Below, piece after piece: positions 2,739-34,124 of a DNA stretch of 64,000 nucleotides. Where the stretch lies: the NCBI RefSeq assembly GCF_001423265.1, contig NZ_LMND01000001.1, forward strand, positions 250,128-314,127. Direction: 5' to 3'. The number at the start of each line of letters is the position of its first letter. Positions within the stretch are counted from its first letter, which is position 1. Source of the DNA: Methylobacterium sp. Leaf108 (lineage in GTDB: Bacteria > Pseudomonadota > Alphaproteobacteria > Rhizobiales > Beijerinckiaceae). The position numbers and the translations under genes were made by a program. The notes beneath the pieces were generated by a model, which searched no databases, was not told the origin of the DNA, and saw only the letters and a list, made by a program, of their open reading frames with translations.

Positions 2739-5024
2739 ATGACGGTCACGCTCGTCCCCTTCCGCGGCCTGTCCACGGCCTGCCTCGCCCTCGCGCTCGG
2801 CCTCGCCGCCGCGGGGCCCGGGTTTTCCAACGAGGCGGTGCCCGTCAGCGATGCCGTGGCAGCCGCCGGCCAGCGCGAGGAAGACAAGGCGATCTCGGAC
2901 CCGGTCTCGGCCGATGCGGCCAAGGTCGAGCTGACGGCGCCGGAATCGGCCGCCAAGCCCCTGTCCACCGGCCCGCTCCCGATCAGGGGCAGCGCGGCGT
3001 CCGCCTATGCCTCGGCCGATGCCGATGCGCCGATCGCCTTCCCGCTTCCCGACGCGGCGGTGACGCCGGCCGCCCCGGTGCCGGAGCTGCCCGATCCCGC
3101 CCGGCTGTCGCGCTCGGGCGACACCGACATCGACGCCCTGCGCCAGGCCGTCGACGCCTACCGCAAGGGCCGCGTCGGCGACGGCGACCGCTCGGCGCAG
3201 GCCTTCAAGGACCCGGCCGCGCGCGCCCTGCTCGAATGGGTGGCGATCCGCGCCGGGGCCGGCATCGGCTTTGAACGGACCGTGGCGTTCATGCGCACGA
3301 CACCGGACTGGCCGGCGGGTGCCCTGATCCGGCGACGCGCCGAGGAGGCCCTCCTCACCGAGAAGAAGAGCCCGGCGGTGGTGCGCGCCTATTTCGCCGC
3401 CGCCAAGCCCGCCAGCGTGCCGGGCAAGGTCGCCCTGGCGCTGGCCTTCAAGGCCGACGCCCTCGACCAGGACGCGGTGGCCCTGGTGCGCGACCTCTGG
3501 CGATCCGACAGCTTCGGCAAGTCCCTCGAGACGCGCATCCTCGATGCGTTTCCCGGCGCGATCACCCGCACCGACCACCGCTTCCGCATGGAGCGGGCCC
3601 TCCTGAAGGAGGATTGGGAGCTCGCGGCCCGCGCGGCGGGCTATGCCGGCGCCTCCTACGTCACCCTGGTGAAGGCGCGCCGGGCGGTGGAGGACAAGAG
3701 CGCGGGCGCGGGTGCGGCCCTCAACGCGGTCCCCCTCGTCCTGCGCAACGATTCCTCCTACCTGATGTCGCGGGCCCAGTTCCTGCGCCGGGCCGACAAG
3801 ACCGTCGAGGCCGCCGCCATGCTGGCCGCCGCCCCCACCAACCCGGACGTGCTCGCCGATGGCGACGAGTGGTGGGTCGAGCGCCGGATCGTGGCGCGCA
3901 AGCTCATGGACATGGGCGACGCCAAGACCGCCTATCGGGTCGCCAGCGGCCACAGCGCCCGCACGGTGGAGAAACGGATCGAGGCCGAGTTCCACGCCGG
4001 CTGGATCGCCCTGCGCTTTTCCGGCGACGCGGCGACGGCCGCAGGGCATTTCGCCACCGCCGCCGCCATCGCGGAGACGCCGATCTCGCTGGCACGCGCC
4101 GCCTATTGGCAGGGCCGCGCCGCCGAGATCCTCGGGGGGGCGGAGAGCGCCCGCCCGTACTACCAGCGCGCCGCCCTGCAGCCGATCGCCTATTACGGCC
4201 AGCTCGCCCGGGTGAAGCTCGGCGAGGCGAGCCTGCCCCTGCGCAGCGTCGTCCCCCTCGAGTCAAAGGCCAGGACCGCCTTCGACGACCGGCTCTGCCT
4301 GCGTGCCCTGCGCCTGCTCGAGGCGGCCTCCCTCAAGGAACTGGCGCTGCCGCTCTACATCGACATCGCCACCCGCCTCACCGACCCGGCCGAGATCACC
4401 GCGCTGGGGGACCTCGCCGTGGAGATGCGCGACTCGCGGGCGCTGGTGGCGATCGGCAAGCTCGCGGTGCAGCGCGGCCTGCCCCTCGACGCCCACGCCT
4501 ATCCCACCATCGGCATCCCGGCCTACGAGGCGTCCGCCGCGGTGCCGCTGGTGGAGAAGGCGATGGTCTTCGCCATCGCCCGCCAGGAGAGCCAGTTCGA
4601 TCCGCGCGCGCAATCGAGCGTCGGGGCCCGCGGCCTGATGCAGATGATGCCGGCCACCGCCCAGCGCACGGCCCGGCGGGTGAGCGCATCCTACGACCAG
4701 GACAGGCTCACCAGCGATCCGGCCTACAACGCACGGCTGGGGCACGCCCACCTCGGCGAGCTGATGGAGGACTGGCGCGGCTCCTACATCCTCGCCTTCG
4801 CCTCCTACAACGCCGGCGGCGGCAACGTGAAGAAATGGATCGACGCCTACGGCGACCCGCGCCGCAGCGGCGTCGACCCGATCGACTGGGTCGAGCGCAT
4901 CCCCTTCACCGAGACGCGCAACTACGTGCAGCGGGTGATGGAGAACCTGCAGGTCTACCGCAACCGCCTCGACGGCCGCAGCGCCCTGCTCATCGAGAAC
5001 GACCTCCAGCGCGGCGCGCGCTGA
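2739..5024 (+). CDS. Soluble lytic murein transglycosylase (Slt-like)
   Basis: A 761-aa exported protein with an N-terminal signal peptide (hydrophobic segment around residues 9-28 ending AAGPGFSNEA). A long alpha-helical repeat region (about residues 130-590) resembles the doughnut-shaped U-domain of Slt70. A C-terminal SLT catalytic domain occupies about residues 605-740. The catalytic glutamate is in IARQESQFDPRAQSSVGARG, followed by GLMQMMPATAQ and the AYNAGGGNVKKW motif. Such enzymes cleave the glycan strand between MurNAc and GlcNAc, forming a 1,6-anhydro end, in the periplasm. It is transcribed away from dapA. An Ala/Pro-rich linker follows the signal peptide. Confidence 0.93.
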   Translation: MTVTLVPFRGLSTACLALALGLAAAGPGFSNEAVPVSDAVAAAGQREEDKAISDPVSADAAKVELTAPESAAKPLSTGPLPIRGSAASAYASADADAPIAFPLPDAAVTPAAPVPELPDPARLSRSGDTDIDALRQAVDAYRKGRVGDGDRSAQAFKDPAARALLEWVAIRAGAGIGFERTVAFMRTTPDWPAGALIRRRAEEALLTEKKSPAVVRAYFAAAKPASVPGKVALALAFKADALDQDAVALVRDLWRSDSFGKSLETRILDAFPGAITRTDHRFRMERALLKEDWELAARAAGYAGASYVTLVKARRAVEDKSAGAGAALNAVPLVLRNDSSYLMSRAQFLRRADKTVEAAAMLAAAPTNPDVLADGDEWWVERRIVARKLMDMGDAKTAYRVASGHSARTVEKRIEAEFHAGWIALRFSGDAATAAGHFATAAAIAETPISLARAAYWQGRAAEILGGAESARPYYQRAALQPIAYYGQLARVKLGEASLPLRSVVPLESKARTAFDDRLCLRALRLLEAASLKELALPLYIDIATRLTDPAEITALGDLAVEMRDSRALVAIGKLAVQRGLPLDAHAYPTIGIPAYEASAAVPLVEKAMVFAIARQESQFDPRAQSSVGARGLMQMMPATAQRTARRVSASYDQDRLTSDPAYNARLGHAHLGELMEDWRGSYILAFASYNAGGGNVKKWIDAYGDPRRSGVDPIDWVERIPFTETRNYVQRVMENLQVYRNRLDGRSALLIENDLQRGAR

Positions 5025-9265: not shown

Positions 9266-10558
<1,293 letters not shown>

Positions 10559-25509: not shown

Positions 25510-26886
25510 CTACAGCAGCGTCCCCTTCAGGATCACCATGGCGACGCTGAAGTAGATCACGAGCCCGGTCACATCCACCAGCGTCGCCACGAAGGGCGCC
25601 GAGGCGGTGGCCGGGTCGAAGCCCAGCCGCTGCAGCACGAACGGCAGCATCGATCCGGTGAGCGAGCCGAAGGTGACGATCCCGACGAGGGCCGCGCCCA
25701 CGGTCGCCGCCACCAGCATCCAGTGCTCGCCGTAGTCGTAGAGGCCGGCCTTCTGCCAGACGACGATCCGGACGATGCCGATCAGGCCGAGGATGGCCCC
25801 GAGCAGGAGCCCGGTCGGCAGTTCGCGCAGCGCCACCTTCCACCAGTCGCGCAGGCGCACTTCGCGGAGGGCGAGCGCCCGGATCAGCAAGGAGGTCGCC
25901 TGCGAGCCGGAGTTGCCCCCCGAACTCATGATGAGGGGGATGAACAGGGTCAGCACGATGGCCTTTTCGAGTTCGCCTTCGAAGCCCTGCATCGCGGTGG
26001 CGGTCATCATCTCGCCGAGGAACAGGGCGCAGAGCCAGCCGGCCCGCTTCCGGATCATCGTCGGAAAGCCGATGTCCATGTAGGACTCGGGCAGCGCCTC
26101 CATGCCGCCGAACCGCTGCACGTCGCGCGTCTGCTTCTCGACCATGGCGTCGATCATGTCGTCGACGGTGACGATCCCGATCAGATGGCCGACGGCATCG
26201 ATCACGGGCAGGGCCAGGAGATCGTATTTCGAGATCAGGCGGGCGGCCTCCTCGCGGCTGGCGGTGGGCGAGACCGCGAGCGGATGTCGCCCCGGTGCGA
26301 CGCTGAGGACGTTGTCGTCGGGATCGCCGCTGATCAGCCGGCGCAGGGGCACCGCCTTGGTCAGGGCCTGGGTGCGCGGGTCGAGGACGAAGATCGCGTA
26401 GATGGTCTCGCGGGTCTTCTCGACCTTGCGAAGGTGGTCGAGGGTCTGGCCGATGGTCCAGGTCCCCGGGACGGCCACGAACTCGGTGGTCATCAGGGAG
26501 CCGACGCTCTCCTCGCCGTAGGCGCTGAGCCGGTCGACGGTGCCACGGGTCTCGGCGTCCAGGCGCGCGCGCAGATCCGAGCGGCCCGGCTCCTCGATCT
26601 CGCGGAACACGTCGGTGACGCGGTCGGCCGCCATGCCCGAGAGATACGAGGCGACGCGGTCGCGCGGCAGCATCTCGATGATGTCGGCGGCGGCATCGAG
26701 CTCGGGCTGGTCCAACACCTCGACGGCCCGGTCGTGCGGCAGCCCGAGGATGATGGCGGCGGCGACCTCGGGCGCCTCCTCGTTGAGGGCCTCGACGATG
26801 TCGGGGGCGCGTTCGTCGGAGAGGCGGGCCGCCAGGACGGAGGGATCGACGGAGCCGAGCGAGTCGGCGACTTGAAGGGCGTTCAT
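25510..26886 (-). CDS. mgtE: Magnesium transporter MgtE
   Basis: A 458-aa protein in the MgtE order. An N-terminal superhelical domain with Asp/Glu-rich repeats (about 1-130; NEEAPEVAAAIILGLPHDRA, AADIIEMLPRDRVASYLSGM) is followed by two CBS domains (about 135-255; SVGSLMTTEFVAV and LLALPVIDAVGHLIGIVTVD). A C-terminal membrane domain of five helices begins near residue 290, with the pore segments IPLIMSSGGNSGSQ and SLTGSMLPFVLQRLGFDPAT. It is a homodimeric Mg2+ channel gated by cytosolic Mg2+ bound to the N and CBS domains. The start is the ATG at 26886. No Mg2+ riboswitch could be recognised upstream. Confidence 0.95.
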   Translation of the reverse strand: MNALQVADSLGSVDPSVLAARLSDERAPDIVEALNEEAPEVAAAIILGLPHDRAVEVLDQPELDAAADIIEMLPRDRVASYLSGMAADRVTDVFREIEEPGRSDLRARLDAETRGTVDRLSAYGEESVGSLMTTEFVAVPGTWTIGQTLDHLRKVEKTRETIYAIFVLDPRTQALTKAVPLRRLISGDPDDNVLSVAPGRHPLAVSPTASREEAARLISKYDLLALPVIDAVGHLIGIVTVDDMIDAMVEKQTRDVQRFGGMEALPESYMDIGFPTMIRKRAGWLCALFLGEMMTATAMQGFEGELEKAIVLTLFIPLIMSSGGNSGSQATSLLIRALALREVRLRDWWKVALRELPTGLLLGAILGLIGIVRIVVWQKAGLYDYGEHWMLVAATVGAALVGIVTFGSLTGSMLPFVLQRLGFDPATASAPFVATLVDVTGLVIYFSVAMVILKGTLL

Positions 26887-27391
26887 GGGCTTAACCTCGC
26901 ACGGCGGGGACGCGGCCGCCGTGGGTGGCGCCGGTCGCCGGGGCCGCCGCGGCCCGGTGCGAGCCTTCAGGCGGCCATGGCGGCCGGGACACCGTGCGGC
27001 GGCGTCGATCGACTGTGACTGTCGCTGGTCATGGGGTTCGGGTCTGGGTCTGGGGTCTGGGGTCCGTATCGTCCCCGCCCGCATCGTCGGATGCGGGCAC
27101 CGGGAGCGCCGCGCCTGTGCACCCGACGGATGAAGGCGTCAAGCGATTTCGCGCGGTGGATCTCCGGCCGGCCGACGCCACCGCCCGGACCTGACACGAG
27201 GGGCCTGCGACGGCCTGAAGGGACCGCGAATTTTGGGTTCGCGCGAATTCCTGATCCAAAGGACGCCGAGGTCGCGCGGGACCGGGGTGCGCCTGCGCGG
27301 ACCCGCTCCCGGCACGAATGGCCGCGCTCCCGCCGATCTGGTACGCACCGGCGACGCGGCCCGGGACACCCCCGGCGTGTCCGGAGGCGAG
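26887..27391. other. 505-base gap between divergent mgtE and acyltransferase genes
   Basis: No gene is convincing here. Open frames on both strands are shadows without ribosome-binding sites. The stretch holds a run of G-tracts at 27033-27062 and a small inverted repeat CGCGAA / TTCGCG at 27225-27244. Promoters for both divergent genes must lie here. Confidence 0.5.
27033..27062 (+). repeat. G-tract repeat, potential G-quadruplex
   Basis: Five runs of three or four G separated by two or three bases (unit about GGGTCT) form a short degenerate tandem repeat. The spacing satisfies the usual G3+N1-7 quadruplex pattern on the plus strand. On the minus strand, which is the mgtE sense strand, it is a C-rich tract about 150 bases upstream of the mgtE start. 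Confidence 0.75.
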
Positions 27392-28024
27392 ATGTCCATT
27401 CCGCAGACCAAGATCTTCCCGAACCTGACCCGCCTGCTGATGGCCTGGGAGATCGCGGAGTTCGGCTGGGAGATCGGCGAGCATACCTACGGTCGGCCGA
27501 CGGTCCTGGAAGCGGGTGCGGCGGCACTCAGGATCGGCCGCTACTGCTCGATCGCGTCCGACGTCGTGATGGTCCTGGCCAACCACCGCATGGACCTCGT
27601 CACCACCTATCCGTTCAAGACCCTGTCCCACCTCTGGCCGAGCGCGGCGGCGGGCGAGGACGACCACGCCAGCCACGGCGACATCGTCATCGGCGACGAC
27701 GTCTGGATCGGCACCGGCGCCATGATCCTGTCGGGAAGCGACATCGGCACCGGCGCCGTCGTCGCGGCGCGGTCGGTGGTGCGCGGCGTAGTGCCCCCCT
27801 ACGCCATCGTGGCCGGCACCCCGGCGAGGGTCATGCGGCGGCGGTTCGACGACGACACCGTCGCCCGGCTGCTCGCGACGGCCTGGTGGTCCTGGCCGGA
27901 GGACAAGCTCGGCGCCTACCTGCCGTTGATGCTGGGGACCGACATTCACGCCTTCCTCGCCCGGGCCGAGGCGGAACGCGACGGCGGCGAACCGTCTCCG
28001 GAGGGACACCCGCCCACGCCGTGA
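27392..28024 (+). CDS. CatB-related O-acetyltransferase (xenobiotic acyltransferase type)
   Basis: A protein of about 210 aa from the ATG at 27392, five bases after GGAGG. It contains left-handed beta-helix hexapeptide repeats (AGAAALRIGRYCSIASDVVM; DIVIGDDVWIGTGAMILSGS; IGTGAVVAARSVVRGVVPPY) and the family ending YAIVAGTPARVMRRRF. The NHRMD motif holds the catalytic His typical of CatB/Vat acyltransferases. These enzymes transfer acetyl from acetyl-CoA to hydroxyls, for example of chloramphenicol, streptogramins, or sugars in surface polysaccharides. The acceptor here is unknown. The reading frame extends upstream to 27233, but without a ribosome-binding site. Confidence 0.88.
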   Translation: MSIPQTKIFPNLTRLLMAWEIAEFGWEIGEHTYGRPTVLEAGAAALRIGRYCSIASDVVMVLANHRMDLVTTYPFKTLSHLWPSAAAGEDDHASHGDIVIGDDVWIGTGAMILSGSDIGTGAVVAARSVVRGVVPPYAIVAGTPARVMRRRFDDDTVARLLATAWWSWPEDKLGAYLPLMLGTDIHAFLARAEAERDGGEPSPEGHPPTP

Positions 28025-28279
28025 ACGGATGCGATGGCTGCCACGGAATCGCGCGACAAAGTTGGCGTGACGTCGCGTATGGAACCATAGCGCAGGGCGA
28101 GACGTCACGGCGTCCGACGGAAGGCCACCGACCGCCGTCGGGGTGGTGGTATATTGCATGAACGCCGCATCAGGCTTGCATCTTATCGCCATCCTATGAG
28201 AAATATAAGTGTAGCGCCCACTTGTATTGCGCCCAACGGATCGCCTATGTCAGGGTCGTTAGCGAGAAGGAGTTTCGCC

Positions 28280-28369
28280 ATGACGTGGTCTGCCCCCATC
28301 GTTCAAGAAGTTTGCGTCGGCATGGAAGTGACGAGCTACGAGTCTGCCGAGATCGACACCTTCAACTGA
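28280..28369 (+). CDS. pqqA: PQQ precursor peptide PqqA, copy 1
   Basis: A 29-aa peptide starting MTWSAPIVQEVCVGMEVTSY and ending ESAEIDTFN. It matches Methylobacterium-type PqqA. The strictly conserved Glu16 and Tyr20 (E-V-T-S-Y) are the residues that PqqE cross-links and that become pyrroloquinoline quinone. AGAAGGAG lies just upstream. It differs from copy 2 at eight bases, mostly silent, with Gln9 in place of Ser9. No pqqB, C, D or E gene is in the window. The peptide is ribosomally made and then bound by PqqD and modified in the cytoplasm. This is the most divergent and most upstream of the three copies. Confidence 0.95.
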   Translation: MTWSAPIVQEVCVGMEVTSYESAEIDTFN

Positions 28370-28455
28370 GGGTCTCGCAACTGACGGTCTCGAGCTCCCG
28401 CCTGGGACGACTCGTAACGTTCGAATTCCCCAACACCCCTTCAGAGGAAAACGCC

Positions 28456-28545
28456 ATGACCTGGTCTGCCCCCATCGTTTCGGAAGTCTGCGTCGGCATG
28501 GAAGTCACCAGCTACGAGTCCGCCGAGATCGACACCTTCAACTGA
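28456..28545 (+). CDS. pqqA: PQQ precursor peptide PqqA, copy 2
   Basis: A 29-aa peptide (MTWSAPIVSEVCVGMEVTSY then ESAEIDTFN) with the conserved Glu16/Tyr20 pair. It is preceded by AGAGGA and lies 86 bases after copy 1. Its 90 bases differ from copy 3 at a single position, pointing to recent tandem duplication or gene conversion. A perfect 9-bp hairpin follows it, before copy 3. Confidence 0.95.
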   Translation: MTWSAPIVSEVCVGMEVTSYESAEIDTFN

Positions 28546-28551
28546 GGCGTC

Positions 28552-28572
28552 GACGCTCCGTGACGGAGCGTC
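28552..28572 (+). other. Hairpin between pqqA copies 2 and 3
   Basis: GACGCTCCG (28552-28560), loop TGA, CGGAGCGTC (28564-28572). The 9-bp stem is perfect and no T-run follows, so it is more likely an mRNA-processing or stabilising element than a terminator. Confidence 0.65.
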
Positions 28573-28617
28573 TCGCACCGGTTCACCGTCATTCATCATC
28601 ATTCCAAGGATATCATC

Positions 28618-28707
28618 ATGACCTGGTCTGCCCCCATCGTTTCGGAAATCTGCGTCGGCATGGAAGTCACCAGCTACGAGTCCGCCGAGATCGACACCTT
28701 CAACTGA
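28618..28707 (+). CDS. pqqA: PQQ precursor peptide PqqA, copy 3
   Basis: A 29-aa peptide (MTWSAPIVSEICVGMEVTSY then ESAEIDTFN) with Glu16 and Tyr20 intact; Ile11 replaces Val11 of copies 1 and 2. Of the three it appears closest to the PqqA of Methylorubrum extorquens as I recall it. CCAAGGA precedes the ATG by several bases. A strong intrinsic terminator follows 26 bases after the stop, so the three copies form a closed transcription unit without other pqq genes. Confidence 0.95.
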   Translation: MTWSAPIVSEICVGMEVTSYESAEIDTFN

Positions 28708-28732
28708 AGGTCGGTCGGCCGACAGGCCGATG

Positions 28733-28763
28733 GGGCGGCACCCGCGAGGGTGCCGCCCTTTTT
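28733..28763 (+). terminator. Strong intrinsic terminator of the pqqA array
   Basis: GGGCGGCACCC (28733-28743), loop GCGA, GGGTGCCGCCC (28748-28758), then TTTTT. An 11-bp perfect stem plus a T-run is a textbook rho-independent terminator. Confidence 0.95.
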
Positions 28764-28784
28764 CATGCCCGATCAATGAAACGA

Positions 28785-28820
28785 CGAAGGGCCGGACCGC
28801 AGACGCGGTCCGGCCCTTCG
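28785..28820 (-). terminator. 16-bp stem hairpin, probable terminator of the MarR gene
   Basis: Positions 28785-28800 are the exact reverse complement of 28805-28820, with loop AGAC. On the minus strand it lies 28 bases after the regulator's stop codon. The following minus-strand bases (GTCGTTTCATT) are only modestly T-rich. Confidence 0.75.
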
Positions 28821-28848
28821 TGCGTGGCGGCGCCCGCTGCCCCGGGGA

Positions 28849-29361
28849 TTAGAGCCGGTAGCGGATCTGGTCGGTCCAGAAACGCTCCAGGCGTCCGAGC
28901 GCGACGTTGAGACGCCCGAAGTCGTCGTCCGAGATGCCGCCGATCGGCTGGATGGTGCGGGCGTGCTTGTCGTAGAGCGTCTGGATGATGTCGTGGACCT
29001 GCTTGCCCTTCTCGGTCAGGCTGATGCGCACCGAGCGGCGGTCCGTCTTCGAGCGGGCGTGGTGGAGATAGCCGGCCTCGACGAGCTTCTTGACGTTGTA
29101 GGAGACGTTGGAGCCCAGGTAGTAGCCCTTGGTGCGTAGCTCGCTCGCGGTCAGTTCCTTGTCGCCGATGTTGTAGAGCAGCAGCGCCTGGACGCTGTTG
29201 ACGTCCTCGCGGTCGCGGCGCTCGAACTCGTCCTTGATGACGTCGAGGAGGCGGCGGTGCAGCCGCTCGACGAGGTGCAGGGCCTCCAGATAGGAACCCG
29301 CGGACGTGCCGGCCTCGGCGGAGGGGGTGCTGTCGACGATCTTGGCGGCCTTGGATGACAT
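28849..29361 (-). CDS. MarR-family regulator, LdtR-like
   Basis: A 170-aa winged-helix protein. Its core SVQALLLYNIGDKELTASEL, GYYLGSNVSYNVKKLVEAGY and LHHARSKTDRRSVRISLTEK matches the Rhizobiales MarR-type regulators known as LdtR, which in Liberibacter and Sinorhizobium control L,D-transpeptidase and stress genes. The recognition helix falls in the GSNVSYNVKKLV segment and the wing carries DRRSVR. The Ser/Ala-rich N-terminal 20 residues are likely disordered. A DUF6163-like gene lies upstream on the same strand, separated by 162 AT-rich bases that probably hold its promoter. The target is inferred from the family only. Confidence 0.85.
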   Translation of the reverse strand: MSSKAAKIVDSTPSAEAGTSAGSYLEALHLVERLHRRLLDVIKDEFERRDREDVNSVQALLLYNIGDKELTASELRTKGYYLGSNVSYNVKKLVEAGYLHHARSKTDRRSVRISLTEKGKQVHDIIQTLYDKHARTIQPIGGISDDDFGRLNVALGRLERFWTDQIRYRL

Positions 29362-31106: not shown

Positions 31107-31253
31107 CGACCCCACTCGGACTCCCCGCGGACCCCTCTTGCCCGTCCAGGCGCCGTTAGACGAACTCTTGGCGCCCCGGTCAATCGGACCCTCGGAAAGG
31201 GCCGGTCCGCCGGCATCGGCCCCGGGTTACCGGGCGTTCGGCGGATGTGATAG

Positions 31254-32707
<1,454 letters not shown>

Positions 32708-32780
32708 GCGGGATCTTGAGACCGGCCGGAGCGGCTCCCATCTCAAGACCTTCGCAATCGCCCCACGAGGGAGCGCGGTG

Positions 32781-33269
32781 ATGCTCGACAACCCGACCGG
32801 CTATTCCGACCGCCTCGGCACCCCCGGCTACGGCCTGCCGGCGCGCCTGCCGTACGTGCGGGCGAGCCTCGGCGCCCGGTTCGTGGCCTATCTCCTCGAC
32901 ATCATGTTCATCTTCGGCTTCACCGCCCTGCTGACCGTGGCGATCACGCTGATCGGCGTCATCACGTTCGGGCTCGGCTGGACGCTGTTCGCGGTGCTGC
33001 CGGCCAGCGGCATCCTCTACAGCGCCATCACGGTGGGCGGCGCCGGCCAGGCCACCTGGGGCATGCGGATGATGGGCCTGCGCGTGGTGACGCCCGAGAC
33101 AGGCACCCGGGTCGACGTGATCACCGCCGGCGTCCATGCGCTCCTGTTCTACGTGGCGATCTCGACCTTCCTGCTCTGGTTCGTCGACATGCTGTTCGGC
33201 TTCATGCGCTCCGACCGCCGCCTCGGCCACGACCTGCTCCTCGGCCTCGCCGTCGTGCGCGCCCCGTGA
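32781..33269 (+). CDS. RDD family membrane protein
   Basis: A 162-aa protein with the RDD-family pattern: a basic Arg before the first helix (SLGARFVAYLLDIMFIFGFT, containing the Arg and Asp), a second helix pair (LIGVITFGLGWTLFAVLPAS), the conserved GGAGQATWGMRMMGLRVVTP, and a third helix (VHALLFYVAISTFLLWFVDM) ending SDRRLGHDLLLGLAVV. RDD proteins are three-helix inner-membrane proteins, some linked to ion transport, without one fixed function. The ATG at 32781 follows GAGGGAG. It lies between the lipoprotein gene and bpt on the same strand. Confidence 0.88.
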   Translation: MLDNPTGYSDRLGTPGYGLPARLPYVRASLGARFVAYLLDIMFIFGFTALLTVAITLIGVITFGLGWTLFAVLPASGILYSAITVGGAGQATWGMRMMGLRVVTPETGTRVDVITAGVHALLFYVAISTFLLWFVDMLFGFMRSDRRLGHDLLLGLAVVRAP

Positions 33270-33377
33270 CGACATGGTGAGGGCGGCGAGTTGCAAGGCC
33301 ATTGAGCGCGACCGTATTGCCGTTACACTCAAGCGATCCGGTGCCTCGCGCCGGGTCCATCGAGGGCCACGGCCAGC

Positions 33378-34124
33378 GTGACCAGCCATCCGCGCGACAC
33401 CCCGCAGTTCTACCTCACCGCGCCCTCGCCCTGCCCGTATCTACCGGGCCAGGAGGAACGGAAGGTCTTCACCCATCTCGTCGGGCGCCGCGCCCGCGAC
33501 CTCAACGAAATCCTGACGCAAGGGGGGTTTCGCCGCTCGCAGACCATCGCCTACCGGCCGGCCTGCGAGACCTGCCGGGCCTGCATCTCGGTGCGGGTGG
33601 TGGTGGCCGATTTCGTCGCCTCGGCCAGCCAGCGGCGCATCCTGCAACGCAGCGCCGATCTCGTGGGCGCGCCCGAGCCGAACCGGCCGTCCTCGGAGCA
33701 GTACACCCTGTTCCGTCGCTACCTCGACGCCCGCCACGGCGACGGCGGCATGATCGACATGACCGTGCTCGACTACGCCATGATGATCGAGGACAGCCAC
33801 GTCGACACCCATCTCGTGACCTATCGCCGGCGCGGCCCCGACACCGCCATCAACGGCCGCGGCACCGGGGCGCCGCTGGCGCTGTGCCTCACCGACGTCC
33901 TCTCGGACGGGCTGTCGATGGTGTATTCGTTCTACGATCCCGCCGAGGCTGCCCGGTCGCTCGGCACCTTCATGATCCTCGATCACATCCGCCGGGCGGC
34001 CGCGCTCGGCCTGCCGTATCTCTACCTCGGCTATTGGGTCGATGGCTCGCGCAAGATGGACTACAAGGCCCGCTTCAAGCCGCAGGAGCGCCTGTTCGGG
34101 CCGGGCTGGCAGCGGGTGGAATAG
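33378..34124 (+). CDS. bpt: Aspartate/glutamate leucyltransferase (bacterial ATE-type)
   Basis: A 248-aa protein starting at GTG 33378. Family features are the N-terminal [14 protein letters not shown], the cysteine cluster [16 protein letters not shown], the [12 protein letters not shown] lead-in, and the C-terminal [20 protein letters not shown] and [11 protein letters not shown]. Bpt transfers Leu from leucyl-tRNA to proteins with N-terminal Asp or Glu, marking them for ClpS/ClpAP degradation (N-degron pathway). Length and motifs fit bacterial Bpt rather than eukaryotic arginyltransferase. It converges with ybgC four bases away. Confidence 0.93.

Follow-up and report, generated by a model that had tools for sequence, protein, structure and literature searches.

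Genes and signals at the locus

The window analysed here is a stretch of 64 kb from Methylobacterium sp. Leaf108. It contains three consecutive pqqA genes, which are preceded by a putative promoter and followed by an intrinsic-terminator-like site (Table 1). The first-pass annotation had described three genes of 90 bases with the residues Glu16 and Tyr20, spacers of 86 nt (copies 1 and 2) and 72 nt (copies 2 and 3), eight base differences between copies 1 and 2 and a single one between copies 2 and 3, and a terminator with an 11-bp stem and a T5 run, and all of these features were confirmed. The three translations exceed the curated cut-off of Pfam PqqA (PF08042, 21.1 bits) with scores of 33.3, 34.2, and 34.7 bits, respectively, and all three retain the Glu-x3-Tyr pair that becomes PQQ. 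The copies constitute one 106-nt direct-repeat family, the only such family reported between 27900 and 29200. For described RNA elements, a search of 27900–29000 yielded 13 Rfam matches at E values up to 5, all far below the gathering scores.

Table 1 Features of the array region and its conserved neighbours, in window coordinates
Feature	Position	Strand	Description
mgtE divalent-cation transporter gene	25510-27084	-	conserved upstream neighbour, divergent from the array
Conserved upstream box	28195-28210	+	TATGAGAAATATAAGT, proposed activator/operator site; core AAATATAAG conserved
Proposed -35	28222-28227	+	TTGTAT within conserved CTTGTATTGCGCCCAA (28221-28236); alignment of 86 upstream regions, putative role
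Proposed -10	28245-28250	+	CTATGT, 17 nt past the -35; alignment and analogy with the AM1 operon promoter, putative role
Shine-Dalgarno-like site, copy 1	28267-28272	+	AAGGAG
pqqA copy 1	28280-28369	+	90 bases, 29 aa, MTWSAPIVQEVCVGMEVTSYESAEIDTFN; Pfam PqqA match
Shine-Dalgarno-like site, copy 2	28443-28449	+	AGAGGAA
pqqA copy 2	28456-28545	+	90 bases, 29 aa, MTWSAPIVSEVCVGMEVTSYESAEIDTFN; Pfam PqqA match
Spacer 2 hairpin	28552-28572	+	9-bp stem, no T run
Weak Shine-Dalgarno-like site, copy 3	28604-28610	+	CCAAGGA
pqqA copy 3	28618-28707	+	90 bases, 29 aa, MTWSAPIVSEICVGMEVTSYESAEIDTFN; Pfam PqqA match
Intrinsic-terminator-like site closing the array	28732-28763	+	exact 11-bp stem 28733-28743/28748-28758, then T5 ending at 28763
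Terminator-like site of the convergent marR-like gene	28784-28821	-	
marR-like winged-helix regulator gene	28849-29361	-	conserved downstream neighbour, opposite strand to the array

The pqq operon and PQQ-dependent enzymes of the same genome

The absence of pqqB to pqqE from the vicinity of the array, as claimed earlier, was upheld: tblastn with the PqqB, PqqC/D, and PqqE proteins of the same genome gave no match across the window. The genome comprises 4.47 Mb on 35 contigs and is rated 100% complete. A profile search revealed four pqqA genes, the three of the array and one on contig C31, which is not the contig of the array. The C31 copy heads pqqB, a pqqC/D fusion, and pqqE; pqqC/D was named from its TENA/PqqC and PqqD domains, and pqqB and pqqE were named from lactamase-fold and radical-SAM/SPASM domains, respectively, together with gene order. 

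Upstream of the C31 operon lie genes for a response regulator and a histidine kinase, called MxbM and MxbD by position; mxbM is reported to adjoin pqqA in strain DM4 (PMC9320726). A formyltransferase of the tetrahydromethanopterin pathway is encoded near the operon, and the operon pqqA is followed by a 7-bp stem, unlike most operon copies. Two PQQ users are encoded, an MxaF-like methanol dehydrogenase, the gene of which has mxaI nearby (1318 bits to 1h4i), and a XoxF (1289 bits to 6oc5), the gene of which is about 10 kb from the pqq operon. Because both enzymes are present, the strain probably needs PQQ, and its genome contains pqqA, pqqB, pqqC/D, and pqqE.

Distribution of pqqA layouts in the genus

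We searched 111 genomes of the genus with the PqqA profile and obtained 329 matches, with at least one in every genome. Exactly one tandem cluster was present in 106 of the 111 genomes, and all 106 were examined, i.e. that of the window and 105 fetched loci, which extended up to 4.5 kb to each side and less at contig ends; 36 further loci were also fetched. A stand-alone tandem array, with no pqqB following, was present in 87 genomes, which makes this the commonest layout of the genus. Two copies were found in 77 of these genomes, three in nine, including the strain studied here, and four in one. These sizes are lower bounds because tandem repeats break assemblies, and six loci, including the four-copy array and that of the nearest relative (G072), stop within 300 bases of the array. 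Another 20 genomes have a tandem pair at the head of the pqq operon; 19 of these are clusters, and the second copy of the remaining one (G109) fell below the profile threshold and was recovered by pattern. Of the other four genomes, G039 has one stand-alone copy besides its operon copy, and G025, G037, and G110 show a single operon copy. The assemblies of G037 and G110 are fragmented drafts; G025 is rated 99% complete, and the operon copy alone was found in it.

The orphan array had been regarded as unusual. This view could not be maintained, as the layout is the predominant one, normally with two copies, and orphan pqqA genes are already in print (PMC11317620). The annotation had also named what would speak against it, namely an operon supplying all PqqA beside an untranscribed array, or the array being a standard feature of the genus. 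A pqqA-pqqBCDE operon does exist elsewhere in the genome, and the array, usually in double form, is standard in the genus, so that half of this counter-case holds.

The 36 further loci comprised 25 single operon copies, the G109 pair, the G039 stand-alone copy, eight more stand-alone loci, and a frame without ATG (L164). For 24 of the 25 operon copies pqqB was in reach, and one (L171) was assigned from mxbM/mxbD alone; one of the eight stand-alone loci (L165) is probably a cut piece of an array. The L164 frame (4435–4524, G072) is pqqA-like, its first codon is not ATG, and it has its own GC-rich hairpin and T run; it is perhaps a decaying copy. Locus L152 (G013) holds two extra pqqA frames in opposite orientation, at about 4574 and 6124, some 1.5 kb apart, one of which has a normal core followed by an unrelated C-terminal tail beyond residue 22. 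At least three species (L154, L157, and L161; G009, G049, and G054) have a second stand-alone single pqqA with Thr4 (MAWTAPVV...), the upstream region of which differs from that of the array and holds ATGAGAGAAAACTAAG and TCTTCTNANGAAGA.

Arrays of at least three copies occur in three or more separate regions of a locus tree, with a minimum of five copy-number changes. The tree covers 83 of 86 rows and is gappy, and 38 of its 78 internal branches are open; three arrays are missing from it, including two three-copy ones, and it was used only for the statement that several lineages are involved. A family-wide sample of 258 genomes, which included 17 of this genus, contained 134 with a PqqA match, and among the 150 matches listed, tandem clusters outside the genus were confined to one other genus (g35), with a spacing of about 445–465 bases. 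According to two papers (PMC3707593, PMC4161386), certain Methylobacterium strains lack pqqA, yet all 111 genomes contained at least one copy. A 90-base gene that escaped annotation is a likely reason.

Conserved place of the stand-alone array

The neighbours of the array are conserved as well. An mgtE homologue was found at 66 of the 87 stand-alone loci, in all 66 cases upstream and on the opposite strand, with a median gap of 420 bases. A marR-like gene was found at 38 loci, always downstream and on the opposite strand (38 of 38), with a median gap of 178 bases. Within the 4.5 kb searched, 84 of the 87 loci have one or both of these neighbours, and two of the other three begin near a contig start. 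The array of the window is flanked by both genes in the arrangement that is typical of the genus.

Several features of the window surroundings were recorded in addition. Between mgtE and the array lies a gene for a hexapeptide-repeat transferase (27233–28024, + strand), which tblastn found at no other stand-alone locus and which looks like a strain-specific insertion. An imperfect inverted repeat, CGTGACGTCGCG / CGAGACGTCACG, with arms 20 nt apart, is located at 28066–28109, 85 nt 5′ of the promoter block described below. Further downstream, a 720-aa open frame (31227–33389, - strand) has no Pfam match at E 0.001; partial matches to it, with about 54–68% identity, recur near many array loci.

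A promoter-like block upstream of the arrays

Alignment of 86 upstream regions revealed a conserved block with the consensus TATGAGAAATATAAGTgT.G.Gc.C.CTTGtATTGcGcCCAA...At.G.CtATaT, which spans 56 bp in the window (28195–28250). Conservation reaches at least 95% at 31 of the first 62 block positions. Of 88 loci, 87 carry the core AAATATAAG no more than 300 bases upstream, and the single miss is cut by a contig end; at three loci (L065, L114, and L132) the core is present and the longer pattern was missed. By analogy with known promoters, we infer that CTTGTAT...CTATAT is the -35/-10 core and that the AT-rich box is an activator site. A consensus promoter scan, based on an E. coli-type consensus, detected no sigma-70-type site in the array region.

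In our searches the block was encountered only before the array. The 16-mer box has one exact copy in the whole genome, that of the array, and a scan of all contigs with the longer pattern found the array locus alone. A search for a box regulon within the genome gave three further sites with three mismatches versus two for a reversed control. A 30-base pattern was then applied to 84,980 species, each represented by one genome. All 68 stretches that it matched belong to Methylobacterium, Methylorubrum, or MAGs that carry the name of their family; in 65 of the stretches pqqA follows 92–206 nt downstream, and the other three meet a contig end first. Exact box strings matched no paper in the open-access literature searched.

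To a weight matrix of the box, the true site scored 45, and the regions before mxaF, xoxF, mxbD, and the pqq operon scored -6.4, -11.4, -17.4, and -20.9, respectively, against a background of 440-nt window chunks with a 95% point of -14.2 and next-best values after the true site of -6.5 and -6.9. By this matrix no strong copy of the box precedes mxaF, xoxF, mxbD, or the pqq operon of the genome, and a regulator shared with mxa is therefore not supported. The values for mxaF and xoxF that exceed the 95% point would reflect AT-rich background, and a weak site at mxaF is conceivable.

Altered, related boxes precede some extra single pqqA copies (L159, L167). At two Methylorubrum-type loci read base by base (L076 and L138, 4380–4490), an insertion of about 80 nt separates the block from the first pqqA, and the block-to-pqqA distances suggest such an insertion in about a dozen of the 68 stretches. 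This insertion fits a leader that begins downstream of the block.

The promoter of the pqq operon in our set is different, with a conserved block CTTG...CGATATA that matches the promoter listed for AM1, i.e. TTGCAG-16-CGATAT; the same paper found no start there in strain DM4 (PMC9320726). Between this promoter and pqqA, the operon leader contains a conserved direct repeat, TCTTA-N6-TCTTA (11-base spacing), in both operon layouts, for example at about 10115–10135 (- strand) of L011. It is possibly a response-regulator or leader element.

Stem-loops behind the internal genes

In the window, folding of the whole of spacer 2 gave a z value of -2.7, and spacer 1 showed no excess (z +0.6). For 96 spacers of the genus, the best stem within the first 40 nt past the internal stop codons was stronger than in dinucleotide shuffles (mean z 1.32, SE 0.16), a result that is based on shuffled single sequences and a hand-set pattern. 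By comparison, the value was -0.68 in the 40 nt directly ahead of the next start, -0.23 behind the final pqqA of 45 operons, and -0.25 in 91 control stretches; the spacers of tandem operon copies gave 1.81 (n = 20), and the array ends gave 4.65 (n = 84). Runs of four T are scarce in the spacers (18 of 96) compared with the array ends (70 of 84), showing that most internal hairpins are not ordinary terminators. RNAalifold on MAFFT alignments detected no shared spacer structure in any of three clades. The hand-set hairpin pattern was matched by 14 of the 96 spacers, some of them with pair changes on both sides, which counts for little as the pattern itself favours pairs. Our guess is that the post-stop hairpins protect or end one-gene messages.

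Peptide classes and selection

We compared 192 stand-alone copies from 96 loci, leaving out the L164 frame and the tail-altered L152 copy. Residue 4 is Ser or Thr in all 192, and it is Ala in all 25 single operon copies that were fetched, out of 106 single-hit clusters. The tandem copies that head operons in another clade have Ser4 in 34 of 40 cases and Ala4 in six. At residue 9, the 25 single operon copies uniformly have Ser, and the stand-alone copies have Gln, Ser, or Ala, apart from one Leu and one Asn. Glu16 and Tyr20 are invariant in the 192 stand-alone copies, and residues 12–26 vary in single copies only. An isoform code in residues 9 and 11, which differ between the copies of the window, was rejected, since their variation among the stand-alone copies is mostly clade-wise and not position-wise; as, moreover, a single promoter-like block lies ahead of all copies, the earlier suggestion that the array peptides are reserved for different conditions was not retained.

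Between genomes, pN was 0.069 and pS 0.318 (pN/pS 0.22; 3000 sampled pairs of 182 array genes). Change is thus biased to synonymous sites, which indicates at the sequence level that selection acts on the array peptide. A chance repeat or decay as the source of the array is ruled out by this bias, by the recurrence of the stand-alone array in 87 of 111 genomes, and by the conserved box.

Expression and gene order in related systems

Toyama and Lidstrom reportedly found in 1998 that M. extorquens can do without its operon pqqA. The two orphan copies of strain AM1 have already been proposed as the reason (PMC6520949). These genes, pqqA2/pqqA3 or META1p4628/4629, resemble the array in that they are consecutive and lie away from pqqABC/DE, and they respond to lanthanides (PMC6414531, PMC11317620). 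AM1 has two orphans and the strain studied here three; they presumably occupy the same place, and the two pairs of AM1 names are presumably equivalent. The Methylorubrum species in our set share the promoter block of the array.

With lanthanum, the log2 changes in AM1 were -3.7 and -3.4 for META1p4628/4629, -1.7 to -2.0 for pqqB, pqqCD, and pqqE, and -3.1 to -8.0 for mxa genes; the operon pqqA is absent from the lanthanum table of this source (PMC6414531). In NdCl3, pqqA2/pqqA3 were fourfold higher than in Nd2O3, and the Discussion of the same paper words the direction differently (PMC11317620). A rise in NdCl3 over Nd2O3 is at odds with a rule by which lanthanides simply switch the orphans off. 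In strain CM4, growth on chloromethane reportedly raises two pqqA paralogs that are consecutive (PMC5585157), and an AM1 production strain with a phaR deletion reportedly shows lower levels of two pqqA homologues (PMC6520949).

Methylobacterium aquaticum 22A also has a tandem pair, but as the head of its operon pqqA1A2BCDE (PMC4392154, PMC5784242). In this strain pqqA1A2 are reported to rise on methanol, and pqqBCDE with calcium only (PMC5784242). In Methylobacterium oryzae CBMB20, pqqA is separate, like the array, at 930 kb from pqqBC/DE, but one gene and no array is reported; the paper mentions a separate pqqA for some species of the genus (PMC4161386). Likewise, Methylosinus trichosporium OB3b has a stand-alone pqqA apart from pqqBCDE, with one copy and no array reported; its expression value of 11857 versus 166–372 for pqqE/CD/B was likened there to that of mxaFI (PMC3615186). 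The 20 genomes of our set with the layout of the M. aquaticum 22A type have a promoter other than that of the array. The Methylophilaceae belong to another bacterial class than Methylobacterium. In this family, e.g. in Methylovorus sp. MP688, 3–12 pqqA copies are reported, in most cases beside a single set of the remaining pqq genes (PMC4109929; Ge 2015 as cited).

Stand-alone or tandem pqqA genes in the genus are thus already known. In the open-access literature searched, no paper was found that describes the conserved position across the genus, the difference at residue 4, the promoter block, or the post-stop hairpins.

Interpretation and alternatives

With a probability of roughly 70%, we propose that the array is the stand-alone pqqA locus of the genus, serving as a separately regulated extra supply of PqqA for PQQ enzymes encoded elsewhere, and that the third copy is a modest dosage step. 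The first-pass annotation had suggested PqqA precursors, a separate transcription unit, and a role in dosage or supply, and these suggestions are supported by the promoter-like block, the synonymous bias, the conserved place, and the AM1 expression departing from that of pqqBCDE.

PqqA is consumed at one molecule per PQQ, and the PQQ enzymes turn over. Copy number and a separate promoter would therefore raise the substrate and not the enzymes: one promoter and two to four substrate genes, with no enzyme genes, would increase the peptide that is consumed without those that are reusable. One transcript would start about 7 nt past CTATGT (28250), each copy would have a ribosome site of its own for translation, and the products would enter PqqD/PqqE cross-linking in trans. 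By extension from AM1, expression of the array should be high during production of the calcium enzyme MxaFI and low in the presence of lanthanides. Relative to the usual pair, a third copy would increase the dosage by up to about half. Counting against a supply function, most species manage with two copies, and the 99% complete genome G025 shows the operon copy alone.

The variation of copy number among lineages, with arrays of at least three copies on at least three parts of the gappy tree, would also be explained by neutral tandem duplication, in which slippage at the 106-nt repeats, or crossover between them, makes the number drift and a third copy is idle. We consider this unlikely in view of the pN/pS value of 0.22, the conserved place and promoter block, and the retention of at least two copies in 87 genomes. 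This evidence concerns the array and not the third copy as such, for which neutral duplication may hold. The separation of the stand-alone and single operon peptides at residue 4 (192 of 192 Ser/Thr versus 25 of 25 Ala), together with a residue 9 that is uniformly Ser in the latter and variable in the former, would be compatible with isoform specialisation, i.e. a functional difference from the operon peptide, for example in PqqD/PqqE affinity, so that a different substrate and not more of it is provided. Such a split is, however, expected from shared ancestry alone, Ala to Ser is a mild change in the leader, and both residues serve in operons, as seen in the operon-heading tandem copies (34 of 40 Ser4, 6 of 40 Ala4), which makes this explanation quite improbable.

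A role of the array peptide outside PQQ synthesis, such as the lanthanide handling that PMC11317620 suggests for PqqA, would agree with the separate promoter-like block, the lanthanide-dependent expression in AM1, and the divergent MgtE-family cation transporter gene at 66 of 87 loci. The invariance of the PQQ-forming Glu16 and Tyr20 in all 192 copies and the variation of residues 12–26 in single copies only argue against such a role, and we give it very little weight.

Beyond the proposed supply function, it is possible, though rather doubtful, that the 56-bp block is the single-target operator of a dedicated PQQ-demand regulator, which, together with stable one-gene messages made by the hairpins, would set the amount of PqqA independently of the PQQ enzymes throughout the genus, with lineages tuning it by the number of copies. 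The first candidates for the protein that reads the box are the marR-like neighbour, by its position, and MxbM, by its function; sequence so far supports neither of them.

Each PQQ uses up one PqqA, so the peptide has to be supplied at a higher rate than the enzymes. A second source, present across the genus and preceded by a promoter block of its own, would be a concrete reason for the dispensability of the operon pqqA in M. extorquens. The short, highly conserved block offers a handle for finding the regulator, and the arrays of two to four copies represent a natural dosage series for asking whether the substrate peptide limits PQQ.
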